DNA of 47,059 bases, taken from the NCBI GenBank assembly GCA_027081405.1, contig JALWKO010000043.1, positions 1 through 47,059 on the forward strand, written 5' to 3'. The notes under the pieces are model-generated. The model did no database searches, was not told the origin of the DNA, and worked only from the letters and a program-made list of their open reading frames with translations. The translations under genes and the position numbers were made by a program. This DNA comes from Campylobacteraceae bacterium (GTDB lineage: Bacteria; Campylobacterota; Campylobacteria; Campylobacterales; Sulfurovaceae). Within the stretch, counting starts at the first letter, position 1; each line of letters starts with the position of its first letter. This document shows positions 15,168 through 41,530 of this stretch, piece after piece.

Positions 15168-15488
15168 CAGTCGCAAGCACGGCCCTTCGGGCCTCACGTC
15201 GCAAGAGATGTCGCCTATAGCGACGGGTCATTAGTCATTGGACACTGGTCATTGGGGGGCAGGACCTCAACCCTGCATTGCGGGAATCAACTCCCGCCTC
15301 CAAAAATTCGCGTTGTATTACAGCGCCCCGCAATCCAACGTCCAAAATTCAAAATCCAACATCAATCGCGCCGCACGGTGCCCCGCAATTTCTCATTTCT
15401 CATTTCTCATTTCTCATTTCTCATTCAAACCGCGCCCACCGGGCGCCCCAAAATTCTCCATTCTCAATTCTCAACTCTCCATTCATTC
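15168..15488 (+). repeat. Heptad-hairpin element 1
   Basis: Fills nearly all of the 15038-15463 gap and runs into the oxidoreductase gene. Modules in order: CAGTCGCAAG; stem TGTCGCC/CGACGG; TCATTAGTCATTGG heptads; GCAGG/CCTGC and GCGGGA/TCCCGC hairpins; GCGTTGT/ACAGCGC; heptads of the ATCCAAA type (15331-15365); GCGCC/GGTGCC; five TCTCATT units (15390-15426); GCGCCC/GGGCGCC; CATTCTCAATTCTCA heptads. Both neighbours are on the minus strand while the element is in plus orientation. The remaining 15038-15167 shows only the proA leader. Confidence 0.85.
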
Positions 15489-16591
15489 GGAAGCCGCCTG
15501 GCCCATTTCCAGAACAGCCGGTCGGGATGGATCCGCCCATCAAAGGATTCGCCCCGGAGGATATGCCGGGCCAGATGCCGGGCCATCAGGGGAGCGAAAA
15601 CGAATCCCCGTCCCCCCAGTCCGTTGAGGATCCAGAGATTTTCGTAATGGATCAGCTCCACTTTGGCCCCCCGCATCACCTCCGGAAACTCCTCCAGGGT
15701 CCGCTCCGCGTCGATCACCGGGCCGACGAGGGGGAAATGGTCCCGACTGGTCGCGCGCATACCGCAGAAGGTTTCGATGAGCCGGAAATCGGCGGTGTCG
15801 GCGATCGCGGAGGCTTTGCGCTCCAGTTCGGCCAGGGGACGTCCGTCGCAGATCCGGCACGGCTCGGGGTGCTTGACATGGGTCGCCCCCAGTTTGACCC
15901 GGCCGTTTCGGGTGGAGGAGAGGGAGAAATCCTTGTGGCAACTGACGGGGAAGCGGCGGGCGGTGGCGTAGTCCCCGCGGCTCCCCCAGAGCCCCCGGAT
16001 CCCCATGTAGCGCAGATCGAGCAGCGGACTCTCGTATCCGGTCGCCAGGACCACCGAATCGGCTTCGATCATTCCGTCGTTTCCGATCAGCTGCCAGAGC
16101 CCTCCGGTACGCTCCAGCTTTCGTATATCCATCTGGACGAAGGGGATCCCCGCCGCGGCCAGACGGCAGACCTCCTGGGCGTCGGCGTCTCCCGCTTCGG
16201 GGAAGAAAAATCCCCCCGGCACGTTCCGGTATCCGGCCGCCGCGGCCCGGGCGGCGTCCCACCGCTCGAAGGGGCGGTAGTTGTGGGGTTCGTAGAGGGC
16301 GAATCGTGTTTCGTCTTCGGGATTTTTGGGGATCCGCAGCACGCCGGTGGGGTGGAACTGTTCGGGGAACCGTTCCCGGTAGAAGCGGTGGGCGAAGGCG
16401 AAGGCTTCGTTGGTCAGCTCCTGCAGGGGACCGCCTTTGCCGATTTTGGGGGAGATGAAAGCCCCCGCCGCGCCGCTGCCGCCGCTTGCCGGGACTCGAC
16501 TGCGGTCCACCAGAAGGACCTCTCCCCCTTCTTCGTGCAAGAAACGCGCAGCCATTACGCCGGCGATACCCGCTCCGATTACGACCGTCAT
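15464..16591 (-). CDS. FAD-dependent oxidoreductase (DAO family, MnmC C-terminal-domain-like)
   Basis: 375 residues. The dinucleotide-binding motif VIGAGIAGVMAARFL is at the very N-terminus with an acidic residue ending the second strand (EVLLVDR), and a GGSGAAGAFISPKIG stretch and the C-terminal GLGGRGFVFAPLMA motif are typical of D-amino-acid-oxidase-fold enzymes. The SGAAGAF-SP pattern resembles the MnmC oxidase domain that removes a carboxymethyl group from tRNA wobble uridine; the methyltransferase half is absent, so I leave the symbol open. ATG with AAAGGG upstream; located 85 bases below hslU on the same strand. The last seven residues (NEWRVEN) and the stop TGA are encoded by heptad element 1. 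Confidence 0.8.
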   Translation of the reverse strand: MTVVIGAGIAGVMAARFLHEEGGEVLLVDRSRVPASGGSGAAGAFISPKIGKGGPLQELTNEAFAFAHRFYRERFPEQFHPTGVLRIPKNPEDETRFALYEPHNYRPFERWDAARAAAAGYRNVPGGFFFPEAGDADAQEVCRLAAAGIPFVQMDIRKLERTGGLWQLIGNDGMIEADSVVLATGYESPLLDLRYMGIRGLWGSRGDYATARRFPVSCHKDFSLSSTRNGRVKLGATHVKHPEPCRICDGRPLAELERKASAIADTADFRLIETFCGMRATSRDHFPLVGPVIDAERTLEEFPEVMRGAKVELIHYENLWILNGLGGRGFVFAPLMARHLARHILRGESFDGRIHPDRLFWKWARRLPNEWRVEN

Positions 16592-21665: not shown

Positions 21666-21881
21666 AGTCGCAAGAACTGTCGCCTTCGGCGACGTTATTA
21701 GTCTTGGTCATTAGTCATTAGTCACTGGTCATTGGGGATACGTCGTTTGTCGTTTGAAAACGCGTTGCGAAGCAACGCCCCGAAATTTCTCATTTCTATC
21801 TTCTCATTTCTCATTCAAAACGCGCCCACCGGGCGCCCCAAAATTCTCCATTCTCAATCCTCAATCCTCAATTCTTATTTC
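21666..21881 (+). repeat. Heptad-hairpin element 2
   Basis: Starts at the stop codon of the upstream gene. AGTCGCAAG; perfect stem TGTCGCC-TTC-GGCGACG; TCATTAGTCATTAGTCACTG heptads; the two middle hairpins of other copies are replaced by CGTCGTTTGTCGTTTG (also 7-periodic); GCGTTGC-GAA-GCAACGC; TTTCTCATTTCTATCTTCTC heptads; GCGCCC-ACC-GGGCGCC; CTCAATCCTCAATCCTCAAT heptads. Lies between convergent genes. The last 69 bases before argG show nothing else. Confidence 0.85.
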
Positions 21882-24239: not shown

Positions 24240-24508
24240 CAAGTCGGCAGCAAGAGCGCCTTTGGCGCGGTCGCAAATCGCAAGTCGCAAGATCTGTTGC
24301 CTTCGGCAACGTTATTCGTCATTGGTCATTGGTCATTGGGGAAACGCCTTCAGCCCTGCATTGCGGGACTGAAGTCCCGCCTCCATCGGCACGCGTTGCA
24401 GCGAAACGCACTGAAATTTCTCATTTCGATCTTCTCATTTCTCATCCAAAACGCGCCGCACCGCGGCGCCCCAAAACTCCTCACTCCTCACTCCTCACTC
24501 CTCACTCA
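24240..24508 (+). repeat. Heptad-hairpin element 3
   Basis: Sits between pdxJ and pdxA, co-directional with both. AAATCGCAAGTCGCAAG heptads; stem TGTTGCC-TTC-GGCAACG (compensatory C-to-T and G-to-A compared with element 2); TCATTGGTCATTGGTCATTG heptads; AGCCCTGCA then GCGGGAC-TGAA-GTCCCGC; GCGTTGC/GAAACGC; TCTCATT heptads; GCGCCGCACCGCGGCGCC; four CTCACTC units (24478-24507). It ends 10 bases before the GGAG ribosome site of pdxA. Confidence 0.85.
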
Positions 24509-24526
24509 TAAAAAACGGAGTTTTTC

Positions 24527-25465
24527 ATGAAACGGGTCGCTATCTCTGTCGGCGATCTGGGCGGCATCGGGATCGAGCTGGCACTTCGCGCCCACGCCGA
24601 AGTGCGTACCCTCGTCGATCCGATCTATCTGATCGACCGCCAGATGCTGGCGCAAGCTGCCGACCTGCTCCGCCTCCCCATTCCCGAAGATTTCACCGTG
24701 GTCTCCCCGGGGGTGGACCCCTTCCCGATCCAACCCGGCCAAGTGGACGCGGCGGCCGGGGCCTACAGCTTCGCTTCGTTCCGGGCCGCCGTGGAACTCT
24801 GCGCCCAGAACGATGCCGACGGGGTCTGCACCCTCCCGATCCACAAAAAGGCCTGGGAGCTGGCCGGCATACCCTACAAAGGGCACACCGACGCCCTGCG
24901 GGATTTTTTTGGCCGGGAAGCGATTATGATGCTGGGATGCCCCCGGATGTACGTGGGACTCTACACCGAGCATATCCCCTTGCGCGAAGTCCCCGACGCG
25001 CTGGATCCGGAGCGGCTCACCCGCTTCCTGCTGGATTTCCATCGGGAGACCGGAGCCGAATCGATCGCCGTGCTGGGGCTCAATCCCCATGCCGGAGACG
25101 GGGGTGTCCTGGGAGACGAAGAGACCCTCATCGCGCAGGCCATCGCCCAAGCCAACCGATCCATCCAAAATCCAAAATCCAAAATCCAAAATCGCCCCTT
25201 CACGGGGCCGTTGGTTCCCGACACCGCCTTCACCCCCGCCATGCGCAGTCGCTTCCGCTACTACGTGGCGATGTATCACGACCAGGGACTCATCCCCCTC
25301 AAGGCGCTCCATTTCCGCGAAAGCATCAACGTCTCGCTCAACCTGCCGATTCTCCGTACAAGTGTCGATCACGGTACCGCTTTCGACATCGCCTACGGCG
25401 GAGGCGTCCCCGATCCCACCAGCTATCTCAACGCCGTCGGTTATATCCGGGAAGCGAAACGATGA
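24527..25465 (+). CDS. pdxA: 4-hydroxythreonine-4-phosphate dehydrogenase, with repeat-encoded insertion
   Basis: 312 residues. Zinc-ligand histidines are in KGHTDALRDFF, AMYHDQGLIPLK and VDHGTAFDIAYGG; SVGDLGGIG opens the protein. Oxidises 4-phosphohydroxy-L-threonine with NAD, giving the amine partner for PdxJ. About residues 213-222 (IQNPKSKIQN) are encoded by four ATCCAAA heptamers plus a partial one, the same word as in the intergenic elements. It falls between the ANRS and FTGPLVPDTAF segments, and the reading frame continues normally on both sides. All three metal ligands survive, so activity is plausible. GGAG is 6 bases before the ATG, immediately after heptad element 3. Confidence 0.95.
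   Translation: MKRVAISVGDLGGIGIELALRAHAEVRTLVDPIYLIDRQMLAQAADLLRLPIPEDFTVVSPGVDPFPIQPGQVDAAAGAYSFASFRAAVELCAQNDADGVCTLPIHKKAWELAGIPYKGHTDALRDFFGREAIMMLGCPRMYVGLYTEHIPLREVPDALDPERLTRFLLDFHRETGAESIAVLGLNPHAGDGGVLGDEETLIAQAIAQANRSIQNPKSKIQNRPFTGPLVPDTAFTPAMRSRFRYYVAMYHDQGLIPLKALHFRESINVSLNLPILRTSVDHGTAFDIAYGGGVPDPTSYLNAVGYIREAKR
25163..25193 (+). repeat. Heptad array inside pdxA
   Basis: ATCCAAA repeated four times without error (25163-25190) then ATC. It is in the same orientation as the ATCCAAA modules of the intergenic elements, and translated in frame. Confidence 0.9.
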
Positions 25466-37077: not shown

Positions 37078-39027
37078 ATGCGAACGACGGTGCGAAAACG
37101 AGCGATCGGCAGGGCGCTCTGGATCTTCCTGTTTCCCATCCTGCTCCTGGCCGAAGGGGGCTTCGGGGGATTTGGCGGAGGCTTCGGCGGCAACCGCCAG
37201 TTCCTCCCTCCCGAAAAGGCCTTTCACGTCGAAGCGAAGCGGCAGAACGACCGGATCGACGTGACGATCCGCCTGGCCGACAAGATCCACATCTACGCCA
37301 AAGATCTCCGTTTCCGGGTCACGAAACCCCAATCCTTCGAGATCCCGGTCCAAAAACCCAAACCGACCCGCTACGAAGGGGACGAGGTCTATTACGGGAC
37401 GCTGCACATTCCGATCCCGCTACGGACCCTCCGCACCCACGGAATCACGGGGCCTTTTACCCTGCGGGTCGATCTGGCGGGATGCTCCGACGCGGGGATC
37501 TGCTATCAGCCCCAGCACTACACCTTCCCCCTCGATGCCGGCGGCGCGTCCGGCAAAGAGGCCAAAGCAAGCCCGGCGGAGCCTTCCGGAGCCCACGCTG
37601 CCACGAGCGAAGCCAATGCCAGTGCCCGATCTTCCTCTACCGCGGCAGGAAACGGCACAGGCGAAAAACCGGGCTTTTTCGAAAAGATCTCCCGCCTCTC
37701 TACCTCGGGCAGCAGCGGCTCCATCGCCAAAGCCCTCGCCCAGGAGGGGGTCCTTTTCGTCCTGCTCCTCTTTTTCGTCGCGGGGCTGCTACTGGCGCTC
37801 ACTCCGTGTATCCTCCCCATGATCCCGATCCTCTCGTCGATCATCGTCAAACAGGCGGGCAAAGAGGGGAAAGTGAGCCGCTCCACCTCCTTCCTGATCT
37901 CTCTGGTCTACGTGGTCTCGATGGCCGCCACCTACGCCCTCATCGGGATCGTCGCGGGGCTGCTGGGCTTCGACCTGCAAGCCCATCTCAACAACCCCTG
38001 GGTAATCATCCCCATGGCCGCCCTTTTCGTGGCGCTGGCCTTTTCGCTTTTCGGGTATTTCGAGCTCGGGCTGCCCGCCTCCTGGCAGAGCCGTCTGAGC
38101 AGAGCCAGCGACAGCGCCCAGGGCAAGGGGCTGCTGGGGACGGCGGTGATGGGATCCCTCTCGGCGCTGATCGTCGGGACCTGCACCGCCCCGGTGATCA
38201 GCGGAGCGATCATCTTCATCTCCCAGACCGGTGACGCCTTCCTGGGGGGTGTGAGCCTCTTCGTGATGGGGATCGGAGCCGGGATGCCCCTGCTCCTCGT
38301 GGGGGCCGGCGCCGACCGCCTCGTCCCCAAGCCCGGAGGGTGGATGACCCGCGTCAGCCAGATCTTCGGCGTCGTGATGCTGGCGATGGCGCTGTACGTG
38401 ATGCGGGGGATCCTCAGCCCCGGATGGTTCCTGTTCCTGGCGTCGCTGCTGCTGATGGGAAGCGCCCTTTATATCGGGGTGTTCGGCGAAGCACAGCGTA
38501 CGGGAGCCCGGCGGCTCATCACCCTACTGGGGTGGGTGCTGCTGCTCTACGGCTCGATCCTCTTCGTCGGAGCGATCGGAGGAGCCACGTCGCTCCTCGA
38601 TCCCCTGGCTCCGTTCACCCGGGGCAAGGCGATCCAAAGCGTCGCACAAAGGTCCATCCTCGTCCCCCTGGAGAAACGGCGGGGCTACACCCTGCAGCGG
38701 CTCCTGGACGAGGTGGCCCAGGCCGCCCGGGAGGGGAAACCGGTCATGGTCGACATCGGCAAGGAAAACTGCGCCGCGTGCAGCGAACTCGAGCACATCA
38801 CCTTCCCCGATCCCCGGGTCCAGAAAGCCCTCAAACGCTTCCGATTCATCCAGATCGACATCACCCGCAACACCCCCGAAGAGCAGGGGATCCTCAAACA
38901 TTTCGGCCTCTTCGGAGCCCCCAACATCCTCTTTTTCGACAGCAAGGGGCGGCCCCTCAAAGACCGCTTCCTCGTCGGATTCGTCAAACCCGAAGACCTC
39001 GTCAAGGTATTGGAGACGATCCGCTAA
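37078..39027 (+). CDS. dsbD: Thiol:disulfide interchange protein DsbD
   Basis: 649 residues in the canonical three-part layout: signal peptide, periplasmic N-terminal domain with the cysteine pair C136/C142 (DLAGCSDAGICYQP), an eight-helix membrane domain with C244 (LTPCILPMIP) and C369 (GTCTAP), and a C-terminal thioredoxin domain with C565/C568 (KENCAACSELEHITF). It carries electrons from cytoplasmic thioredoxin to periplasmic acceptors. All six cysteines are present. Right after the signal peptide is a Gly/Phe-rich stretch GGFGGFGGGFGG, unusual at this position. A Ser/Ala-rich linker precedes the membrane domain. AGAGG lies 13 bases before the ATG. Confidence 0.95.
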   Translation: MRTTVRKRAIGRALWIFLFPILLLAEGGFGGFGGGFGGNRQFLPPEKAFHVEAKRQNDRIDVTIRLADKIHIYAKDLRFRVTKPQSFEIPVQKPKPTRYEGDEVYYGTLHIPIPLRTLRTHGITGPFTLRVDLAGCSDAGICYQPQHYTFPLDAGGASGKEAKASPAEPSGAHAATSEANASARSSSTAAGNGTGEKPGFFEKISRLSTSGSSGSIAKALAQEGVLFVLLLFFVAGLLLALTPCILPMIPILSSIIVKQAGKEGKVSRSTSFLISLVYVVSMAATYALIGIVAGLLGFDLQAHLNNPWVIIPMAALFVALAFSLFGYFELGLPASWQSRLSRASDSAQGKGLLGTAVMGSLSALIVGTCTAPVISGAIIFISQTGDAFLGGVSLFVMGIGAGMPLLLVGAGADRLVPKPGGWMTRVSQIFGVVMLAMALYVMRGILSPGWFLFLASLLLMGSALYIGVFGEAQRTGARRLITLLGWVLLLYGSILFVGAIGGATSLLDPLAPFTRGKAIQSVAQRSILVPLEKRRGYTLQRLLDEVAQAAREGKPVMVDIGKENCAACSELEHITFPDPRVQKALKRFRFIQIDITRNTPEEQGILKHFGLFGAPNILFFDSKGRPLKDRFLVGFVKPEDLVKVLETIR

Positions 39028-39040
39028 ACGGCTCCCGACG

Positions 39041-39327
39041 AGTCTCAAGCACGGCCCTGCGGGCCTCAAGTCGCAAGTCGCAAGAAGTGCCGTCTTTGGC
39101 GACGTCATTGGTCACTGGTCATTCGTCATTGGGAGCAGGACTGAAGTCCCATCTCTATAAACACGCGTTGCGCAGCAACGCACCGCAATCCATCTTCCAT
39201 CTTCCATCATCAATCTTCCATCTGCGCCCCAAGGCGCCCCGTCACTCCTCACTCCTAACTTCTCACTTCTCTCTTCTCATTCGCGCCGCGCCCTACGGCG
39301 CCCCAAAACTCCTCATTCCTCATTCGA
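39041..39327 (+). repeat. Heptad-hairpin element 4
   Basis: CTCAAGTCGCAAGTCGCAAG heptads; a degenerate first stem (GTGCCG/GGCGAC); TCATTGGTCACTGGTCATTC heptads; a collapsed middle hairpin (GGACTGAAGTCC); GCGTTGC-GCA-GCAACGC; CTTCCATCTTCCATC heptads (39192-39221); GCGCC-CCAA-GGCGCC; CTCACTC-type heptads; a second GCGCC/GGCGCC; CTCATTCCTCATTC. Begins 14 bases after the dsbD stop. Confidence 0.85.
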
Positions 39328-39381
39328 CCACACCTGGCATCTCCACCCAGACGTCAGTCCCTCGCGTTTTCTTTTTCTTTG

Positions 39382-39430
39382 CTTCGTTTCGTTCTTCTTT
39401 GTCGCGCGAACAAAGAAGAACAAATGAAGA
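39382..39430. terminator. Long hairpin between elements 4 and 5
   Basis: GTTCTTCTTTG/CAAAGAAGAAC (39391-39421, 9-base loop) extended outward by CTTCGTTT/AAATGAAG with one bulge, a stem of about 19 pairs. It follows a T-rich stretch (39367-39380). It could end transcription from dsbD or from the minus-strand operon, or be an unrelated inverted repeat. Confidence 0.5.
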
Positions 39431-39439
39431 GATAAAAAA

Positions 39440-39735
39440 TAGTCACAAGTGATGTCGCCTTCGGCGACGTCATTGGTCTATTGGTACATTGGTGTACTGG
39501 ATGCAGGGCTTTCGCCCTGCAGTGCGGGAATGAATTCCCGCCTCCAAAAATATGTGTTGCAACGCAACACCCCGCAATCCAACATCCAGAATCCAAAATC
39601 CAACATTGAGCGCGTAGCGAACGCTACGCCCCAAAATTTCTCATTTCTATTTTCTCATTTCTCATTCGGACCGCGCCGCCCCAAGGCGCCCCAAAACTCC
39701 TCACTCCTCACTCCTCACTTCTCTCTTCTCATTCA
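39440..39735 (+). repeat. Heptad-hairpin element 5
   Basis: AGTCACAAG; TGTCGCC-TTC-GGCGACG; TCATTGGTCTATTGGTACAT; GCAGGGC-TTTC-GCCCTGC and GCGGGAA-TGAA-TTCCCGC (compensatory relative to elements 3 and 6); GTGTTGC-AAC-GCAACAC (compensatory relative to element 4); AACATCCAGAATCCAAAATC heptads; GCGTAGC-GAAC-GCTACGC; TCTCATT heptads; GCGCC/GGCGCC; CTCACTC heptads running into the convergent LpxH-like gene. Confidence 0.88.
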
Positions 39736-40504
39736 AAAACCCGCCGTCGAGCAGTTCCGCCACGGGAACGAAGATGATCTCCCCGTTTCGTACCACCCCC
39801 ACCTCCTTCTGGCAGGCCAGGGAGGGAAGCGCGACGTAGCGTCCGAAGCGGCCCCGCTGATGGAAGTGCCCCTCGATCACCCGTTCGGCTTCGGGGGGAT
39901 AGTGGCGCAAAATACGCTCCACTTTCTCGGAAAACCCAGGGATCTCCCGGCAGATTTTTTTGCTGCGCAAGCGTCGCATCGGCCGATCGATCAGTCCCTT
40001 CTCCCATGGCAGGAGCAGGCACATCGCCCGACAGCGGCGCAGCAGCAGGGTATAGATCTCGTATCCGATCCCGGTGTCGTAGCGATCCCCGTGGGCCAGC
40101 GCCACCCGTCTGCCCCCCATCTCCATCATGATCGGCTGCAAAGAGCGGGGATAGACGTGCGCGTCGGGGAAAAGCGAAGCGAGGCAGAAGTCGTGATTGC
40201 CTTCGAAATAGTGCACTTCGATCCGCCGGCTCAGCCGCTGCACCGCGGCGATCGCCTCGGAAGCGAAGCTGCGGATATACGACCCGCACCCGAAGAGGAG
40301 ATCAAACACATCCCCCATCAAAAAAAGCTGCGGCGTTTCCACCTCCCCCGCCTCCAGCGCCCGCAAGAGTGCCAGAAACTCCTCTCCGTGGTGGGGATAG
40401 TGGGCGTCGGCGACGAAAAGGGCATCTTCAAGAATGGGATGTTGGATGCTGGATGCTGAATGTCGGATTGAGGAGCCGATCTCCTCCAACTCCTCACTCC
40501 TCAC
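39701..40504 (-). CDS. UDP-2,3-diacylglucosamine diphosphatase-like metallophosphoesterase with repeat-encoded ends
   Basis: 267 codons as the frame stands. Metallophosphoesterase motifs are complete: DAH in ALFVADAHYPHHGEE, GDVFD in LFLMGDVFDLL, GNHD in YFEGNHDFCLA, and GHFHQRG; AHGDRYDTG also fits LpxH-type lipid A enzymes, so this role in lipid A assembly is likely. The natural protein probably begins near residue 27 (LEDALFVAD); the preceding residues (RSEELEEIGSS, then SIRHSASSIQHP) translate heptad sequence, and the apparent start GTG and its GAGGAG ribosome site come from CTCACTC repeats. The last ten residues (NEKREVRSEE) and stop come from element 5. Third gene after greA and argC. 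True start is uncertain. Confidence 0.8.
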   Translation of the reverse strand: MRSEELEEIGSSIRHSASSIQHPILEDALFVADAHYPHHGEEFLALLRALEAGEVETPQLFLMGDVFDLLFGCGSYIRSFASEAIAAVQRLSRRIEVHYFEGNHDFCLASLFPDAHVYPRSLQPIMMEMGGRRVALAHGDRYDTGIGYEIYTLLLRRCRAMCLLLPWEKGLIDRPMRRLRSKKICREIPGFSEKVERILRHYPPEAERVIEGHFHQRGRFGRYVALPSLACQKEVGVVRNGEIIFVPVAELLDGGFLNEKREVRSEE

Positions 40505-40519
40505 TCCTCACTCCTCACT
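40436..40519. repeat. Partial heptad element between argC and the LpxH-like gene
   Basis: Plus strand: GGATGTTGGATGCTGGATGC heptads, which are the ATCCAAC-type module in reverse orientation, then GGATTGAGGAG-CC-GATCTCCTCC hairpin-like sequence, then forward CTCACTC units ending 4 bases before the argC stop. A rearranged or partly inverted copy. Confidence 0.8.
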
Positions 40520-40522
40520 CGA

Positions 40523-41530
40523 TCAAGGCACGTAAGCGATCACCGGCAACCCCGTCCCCTCGTCCTGGCCGGTCATGAGGTTCGCCGCGGCGAGGGCCTG
40601 GCTGGCCGCACCCCGGAGGAGATTGTCGATGGCGCTGGAGACGAAAAGCGCCTTGCTGTTTCGGGCGGCGAAAATGTCGCAAAAGTGGGTCCCGGAGACG
40701 CTTTTGATATCCACGGGTTTCGTCCGCAGCCGGATGAACCGTTCGGTCCCGTAGGCTTCTTCGAGTACCTTGTGGGGATCGACCGTCTTTTTGAGGGTGG
40801 CGTAGACGCTCACCAGCTCCCCGCGGGTGGCGGGGATGAGATGGGGGACGAAATTGACCTGGGTGCGAACCCCTTTGATCTTGGCGATCTTTTCGGCGAT
40901 TTCGGGGGCGTGGCGGTGTTTGAGGGGGTTGTAGGCGAAGATGTTTTCGTTGATCGTCACGAAATGGCTCGTTTCGGCGAGTTTCTTCCCCGCCCCGCTG
41001 AGCCCCGACTTGGCGTCGATGAAAATCGGCGCATCGGGATCGATGTAGGGGATGAAGGGCAGAATCCCCAGCAGCGTCGCCGTGGGGTAGCAGCCGGGAC
41101 CCGCCACGAGCCGGGTGCTGCGGATCTCGTCCCGGTAGTACTCGATCAGCCCATAGACCGCTTCGCCCAGGTGCTCGGGATCCTCGTGGGGACAATAGGC
41201 CGCCTCGTAGGTCTCCCGCTCCAGCCGGTAATCGGCCGAGAGATCCACCACTTTGACCCCCCGCTCGAGGAGCTCTTTGGCAAACCCCATCGATTCTTTG
41301 TGGGGAAGGGCCAGGAAGGCCAGTTCGCACCGTTTGGCCACCTCTTCGGGCCGTGCCTCCTCCACCGGGAAGGTGATCAGATCCAGCAGCGCGGGGTGGA
41401 GCTCCTCCACGAGGCGGTCACCGCTGCGGGTCGCCAGGTAGTTGAGCCGAAACCCCGGGTGGTTGAGGAGCATCTTGACCAGTTCCAGGCCGGTGTATCC
41501 CCCCGCCCCCACTACGGCTACGTTGATCAT
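40523..41530 (-). CDS. argC: N-acetyl-gamma-glutamyl-phosphate reductase
   Basis: 335 residues. NADP-binding VAVVGAGGYTGLELVKML at the start, catalytic cysteine in VAGPGCYPTATLL, and HRHAPEIAEKI plus FVPHLIPATRGE further on. Third step of arginine synthesis. AAGGGGG precedes the ATG, and the greA stop is 9 bases upstream, so they share a transcript. The stop TGA is immediately followed by the partial heptad element. Confidence 0.97.
   Translation of the reverse strand: MINVAVVGAGGYTGLELVKMLLNHPGFRLNYLATRSGDRLVEELHPALLDLITFPVEEARPEEVAKRCELAFLALPHKESMGFAKELLERGVKVVDLSADYRLERETYEAAYCPHEDPEHLGEAVYGLIEYYRDEIRSTRLVAGPGCYPTATLLGILPFIPYIDPDAPIFIDAKSGLSGAGKKLAETSHFVTINENIFAYNPLKHRHAPEIAEKIAKIKGVRTQVNFVPHLIPATRGELVSVYATLKKTVDPHKVLEEAYGTERFIRLRTKPVDIKSVSGTHFCDIFAARNSKALFVSSAIDNLLRGAASQALAAANLMTGQDEGTGLPVIAYVP

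Follow-up and report, generated by a model that had tools for sequence, protein, structure and literature searches.

How is a conserved gene translated when repeats occupy the place where its start codon should be? This question is raised by an LpxH-like gene in a 47,059-nt stretch of DNA (the window) from a member of the genus Nitratifractor. The window corresponds to contig C43 of a draft genome of 1.93 Mb in 91 contigs (hereafter G000); among named relatives, metagenome genomes of Nitratifractor and Sulfurovum are the closest. The gene opens and closes within tandem arrays of 7-nt units. We consider it likely that heptamer elements displaced the native lpxH start, that translation now most probably begins in the array to the left, and that an array also supplies the 3' tail and the stop codon. 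The features of the locus, in window coordinates, are as follows.

40523..41530 (-): argC, upstream neighbour on the same strand (TIGR01850, 335 bits for a cut-off of 233.6).
40525-40523 (-): TGA stop of argC, ~2 nt ahead of the left array.
40504..39701 (-): LpxH-like open reading frame, GTG start, 267 aa.
40489..40520 (-): left arm, (GAGTGAG)4.6 on the gene strand, with Shine-Dalgarno-like sites and GTG/TTG starts.
40511..40515 (-): AGGAG, 6 nt upstream of the GTG.
40502..40504 (-): GTG, first possible start in frame, 27 codons ahead of ALFVAD.
40487..40489 (-): TTG, second possible start in frame, preceded at 7 nt by AGGAG; in-frame TTG here also in relative G009.
40463..40486 (-): spacer containing a short inverted repeat (GAGGAG...CTCCTC) and very similar to the spacer of G009.
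40430..40462 (-): right arm, a degenerate array of (CAGCATC)n that is free of stops in the gene frame and ends ~7 nt short of the conserved core.
39737..40429 (-): conserved core of the LpxH-like metallophosphoesterase (EDALFVADAHY ... AELLDGGF).
39696..39731 (-): 3' array of GAGTGAG type, 5.1 units, source of the ten C-terminal residues (NEKREVRSEE) and of the stop codon.
39701..39703 (-): repeat-encoded TGA stop of the LpxH-like gene.
39067..39731 (+): composite stretch separating the LpxH-like gene from dsbD, in which heptamer arrays CAAGTCG, GTCATTG, TCCATCT, TCACTTC, AATCCAA, ATTTCTC and ACTCCTC alternate with short GC-rich palindromes.
37078..39027 (+): dsbD, convergent neighbour.

The initial annotation had proposed that the frame opens with a GTG and a ribosome site supplied by repeats, and that its ten final residues and stop are repeat-encoded. 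Both statements agree with the anatomy of the locus: GTG and AGGAG lie inside (GAGTGAG)4.6, which on the + strand is an array of unit ACTCCTC (40489-40520, 4.6 units, 100% match), and NEKREVRSEE and its TGA lie in the array at 39696-39731. The further statement that some 26 N-terminal residues are repeat-encoded needs an amendment. Residues 1-25 do come from array or array-spacer DNA, but about 8 of them are spacer and contain no repeat units: MRSEEL derives from GAGTGAG, EEIGSSIR from the spacer, and HSASSIQHPIL from the degenerate CAGCATC array (placed by TRF at 40437-40462). These arrays sit upstream of EGALFVADAHYP. No in-frame ATG, GTG or TTG lies between the arrays and the core, and coding-like codon usage starts at 40429, the first base past the repeats, according to a codon-usage caller that is blind to repeats. 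Rfam gave no matches in 39000-40700.

The product belongs to the Pfam family Metallophos and is an LpxH-like metallophosphoesterase, probably a UDP-2,3-diacylglucosamine hydrolase, as judged from sequence and modelled structure. It carries all the motifs of metallophosphoesterases (DxH, GD, GNHD, H, GHxH), and the residues of the metal site (D33 H35, G64 D65, G102 N103 H104 D105, H138, G212 H213 H215) are invariant among 37 aligned sequences. The 25 best PDB folds found by Foldseek are all LpxH (E from 4e-11 to 1e-9, the next fold being at 1.6e-6), and a sequence search of the PDB returned LpxH matches only. The AlphaFold model has a mean pLDDT of 86.1, with values below 50 at residues 1-16 and 260-267, which are part of the repeat-encoded ends. 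The assignment must be read with care: the protein shares the motifs and the nearest solved fold with LpxH, yet it has about 20% identity to solved LpxH chains and scores under the curated NCBIfam cut-offs for LpxH (49.8 bits for 134 in PRK05340.1; 27.2 bits for 190.35 in TIGR01854, a cut-off passed by none of six genomes of the set), and its activity is a predicted one. LpxI was absent from the six genomes tested. LpxJ was considered as an identity and dropped, since a review shows it to be an acyltransferase.

The gene had also been called a likely essential lipid A gene. Its role in lipid A is probable, given that the best solved folds are all LpxH and that lpxB, lpxC and the LpxH-like gene are jointly missing from two genomes of one related genus (G017 and G027). 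Essentiality is less easily maintained, because G008, a member of the same genus as G000 and complete by estimate, has lpxB and lpxC and no detectable copy of the LpxH-like gene, after argC or elsewhere. The related genus of G017 and G027 (g6) may lack lipid A.

The argC-lpxH junction was compared across relatives. In nine relatives lacking the element (G018, G003, G004, G024, G014, G033, G034, G025 and G015) the gene starts 7 codons ahead of the core, typically with M-x-E-I-K-E-G-ALF, and many of these native starts have no good Shine-Dalgarno match. Element-bearing orthologs have no start closer than 11 codons to the core. The position of the start in repeat-free relatives bears out the earlier suggestion that the native initiation region was replaced. 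The same holds for the native tail, for orthologs show nothing that corresponds to the part after about 'AELLDGGF'. Relatives with the same N-terminal residues and no repeats would have spoken for the opposite, and the outcome of the comparison favours replacement by repeats.

The window species is not alone in this. Seven members of the genus have heptamer arrays between the argC stop and the core (G000, G005, G006, G009, G007, G002 and G011), and their units differ by species: GAGTGAG, ATGTTGG/CCAACAT, GAGAATG/ATTCTCA, GATGGAA/TTCCATC and CAACGAC. In six of the seven (all save G011) the left arm holds an in-frame start with AGGAG, AGGA, GGAGG or GGAG at a spacing of 6-8. G000 and G009 have in common the spacer, an encoded MRSEELE-I-SS and the in-frame TTG. 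Six of the seven element-bearing orthologs fall in one clade of the gene tree (support 89/91), with G011 standing apart; G010 falls inside that clade and yet lacks the element, which it either lost or never had.

Such arrays are a general feature of these genomes, which we sampled in stretches: about 704 kb of G000 and 2.0 Mb of G011, a relative assembled as a single contig. There were 50 period-7 arrays in 410 kb of G000, with 0-2 arrays for each of periods 4-6 and 8-13 (leaving aside period 14, its multiple) and no period-7 array in a random control that preserves dinucleotides, so that their number greatly exceeds random expectation. About 17-18 unit families occur per genome sample, among them ACTCCTC, AATGACC, AATGAGG and AAAATCC. 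Most arrays are intergenic (58 of 70 in G000, 45 of 57 in G011), and with their strict 7-nt period and about four units they have the traits of heptameric intergenic simple sequence repeats; neither GGGAATC nor TAACTGA was found here as unit sequence. They are also strongly polar. Within a gap, G-rich arrays lie left and C-rich arrays right regardless of gene orientation, by 30 cases to 2 in G000 and by 57 to 1 in G011 (pooled, 87 to 3), which is the strand polarity with convergent arms ('<>' vs '><') of heptameric intergenic repeats. Left arms of such elements usually contain start codons and right arms are usually open in all frames. We had considered that both arms of an element come from the same heptamer family as a rule. 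This is true at the argC-lpxH junction of G006, G002 and G007 and fails genome-wide, where the arms share a family in 0 of 30 (G000) and 2 of 57 (G011) elements.

Other loci of the window show related arrangements. At 15332-15484, 21697-21875, 24270-24507, 39067-39325 and 39471-39731, families follow each other in the near-constant + strand order GTCGCAA, ATTGGTC, AATCCAA, ATTTCTC, ACTCCTC, and the recurrent families are separated by short GC-rich palindromes, e.g. GCGCCCCAAGGCGCCCC. Another gene (15464-16585, -) takes its last codons and its stop from a heptamer array of GAGAATG type. At 24476-24527 an ACTCCTC array stops about 20 nt ahead of the next gene's ATG; this gene has kept its own start, which is the usual arrangement.

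How often are gene ends lost to arrays? Gene counts, which come from a simple codon-usage caller and are hence approximate, give a stop codon inside an array for 12 of the 521 genes called in G000 and for 21 of the 1483 called in G011. Only two of the 521 genes of G000 have no start outside an array: the LpxH-like gene and a Ppx/GppA-like gene on contig C17. The LpxH-like gene is the sole gene of the sample with both ends in arrays; for the whole genome, a two-ended case is not clearly above the expectation from the separate rates of starts and stops.

The Ppx/GppA-like gene provides a second case of the same phenomenon.

G000:C17:6523-7434 (-): Ppx/GppA-like gene; counterparts at 485860-486792 in G011 and at loci L268-L274.

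Its N-terminus is array-encoded in several members of the genus, again with differing heptamers: the arrays, which lie upstream of IGFDLGSNT, are of ATCCAAA in G000 and G006 and of CTCACTC in G011 and G002. G005 and G006 have a single in-frame start, a GTG that closely follows the stop of the upstream gene and precedes the array. Since the array sits downstream of this sole start, it is translated if the protein is made. The ortholog loci were fetched with an approximate query peptide; we discarded the resulting identities and E-values and read the DNA of the loci directly.

These observations suggest how the LpxH-like gene might be expressed. Elements of the intergenic type common in the genus entered the gap between argC and lpxH, and the native start codon was displaced by them, as the comparison of relatives shows. 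Initiation would take place at the GTG at 40504 or the TTG at 40489 by means of the AGGAG motifs of the array, possibly helped by ribosomes terminating at argC about 20 nt upstream. The ribosome would then read on across the spacer and into the right array, where the gene frame has no stop. The expected result is an intact enzyme that tolerates a tail of 20-25 N-terminal residues, predicted to be disordered. The 3' end would have been overrun likewise, the array providing a short 'VRSEE' tail and a stop. As the GAGTGAG array presents TGA, and ribosome site plus GTG, in shifting frames, an invaded gene would tend to find a start or a stop there. This scheme needs no regulatory role to be assumed in the window species. 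The repeat by itself goes some way to ensuring that orthologs have in-frame starts, whose presence is therefore no proof of use. The N-terminal extensions could moreover be absent from the mature enzyme.

One might speculate that the repeats form a deliberate translational switch, e.g. a thermosensor, in which the right arm pairs with the left arm and masks the ribosome site and the start. The leaders of G006, G002, G007 and G005 do fold far better than shuffled sequences (z of -7.4, -7.4, -4.0 and -3.2), and their long stems include the ribosome site; the leader of G009 gives a z of -2.7. But the leader of the window itself hardly beats its shuffles (z -1.4), because its two arms come from different heptamer families. 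The rarity of same-family arms genome-wide (0/30, 2/57) and the complete lack of an element in G010 also argue against a selected hairpin. A regulatory hairpin is thus possible in some relatives and not supported in the window species, and as an account of the locus the switch seems unlikely.

Alternatively, the repeats might be an untranslated leader, with translation beginning at a near-cognate codon at the conserved Ile before the core and coupled to argC termination. The codon would be ATT in G000, where it precedes LED, and ATC or ATA in G005, G006, G007, G002 and G011. Most repeat-bearing orthologs have indeed retained an AT(A/C/T) codon beside the core, coupling to argC was probably a feature of the native gene, and the many native starts with no good Shine-Dalgarno match would fit such an arrangement. 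Yet the AT(A/C) codons are explained as remnants of the ancestral M-x-E-I-K-E-G start, and G009 has no AT(A/C/T) codon within the last five codons before the core. Near-cognate AT(A/C) starts are in addition rare and weak in bacteria, which counts against this possibility. We regard it as quite improbable, and initiation in the left array as the better account.

It had also been claimed that a change in repeat number would alter the frame of the start. Our simulations contradict this for the array that carries the start. With varying copy numbers of CTCACTC (the left array read on the other strand), the TTG with its AGGAG stays in frame from 2 units up (2 to 8), and the GTG with its AGGAG from 4 units up (4 to 8). 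The start remains in frame because the end of the array sits at a fixed distance from the gene, i.e. it is anchored downstream. Only changes in the CAGCATC array move the frame, and even then two of the three phases keep a start with a ribosome site and one loses it. At the 3' end, three or more units lead to an identical tail and stop. Genes that end on an array-supplied stop in G000 and G011 often have the same tail (VRSEE or NEE), because a 7-nt array yields the same seven codons whichever frame is entered. More generally, since 7 equals 1 modulo 3, an array offers start and stop signals in shifting frames, and this would be why insertions are tolerated and why the frame of the start does not depend on the copy number of the GAGTGAG array. 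The overwriting of a gene boundary by a 7-nt array is in this sense partly self-correcting.

This arithmetic bears on the idea of a contingency locus, where slippage of the arrays would toggle the gene on and off. The unit length is no multiple of three, the start lies within repeats, and when the right arm changes, one phase out of three can leave the gene with no in-frame start; these points speak for phase variation. However, the longer and perfect array cannot shift the frame, the arrays are short (3-5 units) and adjoin many kinds of genes, and this particular gene is probably needed by most cells; phase variation is thus very improbable. Least credible of all is an assembly artefact, in which metagenome repeats were misjoined or collapsed and the true genome has a native start: the draft is fragmented (91 contigs) and the contig of the related assembly G001 begins at the core of the LpxH-like gene, but six further genomes, including the single-contig G011, have heptamer elements at the same junction.

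A broader interpretation goes beyond displacement and rescue at one locus. Elements of this kind might be frame-independent boundary cassettes, carrying TGA, GGAG and GTG or ATG in shifting frames, that repeatedly overwrite the ends of genes. At argC-lpxH such a cassette would have been kept for long, its units being replaced, as the working start of a lipid A gene, in some species within a hairpin that tunes expression. We put this forward tentatively, as a possibility that is more doubtful than not.

Published accounts treat intergenic heptamer arrays as products of slippage, formers of quadruplexes or binding sites. Should translation indeed begin in the repeats, arrays would in addition keep offering conserved genes ribosome sites, starts, stops and terminal tails, and gene boundaries predicted at such loci may be systematically wrong. 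A dozen species compared at one junction also put directly to the test how a gene can lose its start and survive.

The repeats themselves belong to a known kind of heptamer arrays, with differing unit sequences. Heptameric intergenic repeats of GGGAATC or GGGGA(C/T)T were described in Xanthomonas and Nostoc (Rehm et al. 2015, PMC4692102); the GGGAATC-type repeats of Xanthomonas have the same polarity, convergent pairs and about four units, and polarity was also found in Nostoc (PMC4692102). Ours resemble them in the 7-nt unit, in having mostly about four units, in being mostly intergenic, in forming convergent pairs as inverted repeats, in having the G-rich strand near the 5' neighbour and in that some overlap stop codons. 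They differ in that Xanthomonas and Nostoc have one G-quadruplex-forming unit type per species, whereas here there are 17-18 families per genome sample, with different unit sequences and with arrays that have displaced a start codon. The TAACTGA direct repeats of Beggiatoaceae, Cyanobacteria and Bacteroidetes (MacGregor 2015, PMC4679880) contain stops in all frames in forward orientation and are open in reverse (PMC4679880). They are likewise heptamers beside start codons, closed in all frames one way and open the other way, and some of them overlap the end of the upstream gene. Yet TAACTGA has little Shine-Dalgarno character and lies just upstream of starts, whereas here the ribosome site and the start lie inside the arrays, which are partly in the reading frame. 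The tandem heptanucleotides (STRR) of Calothrix, as cited in PMC4692102, are alike in that several heptamer families occur per genome, a likeness drawn from that description. What is new relative to these systems is the recurrent capture of a conserved gene's start by heptamer arrays.
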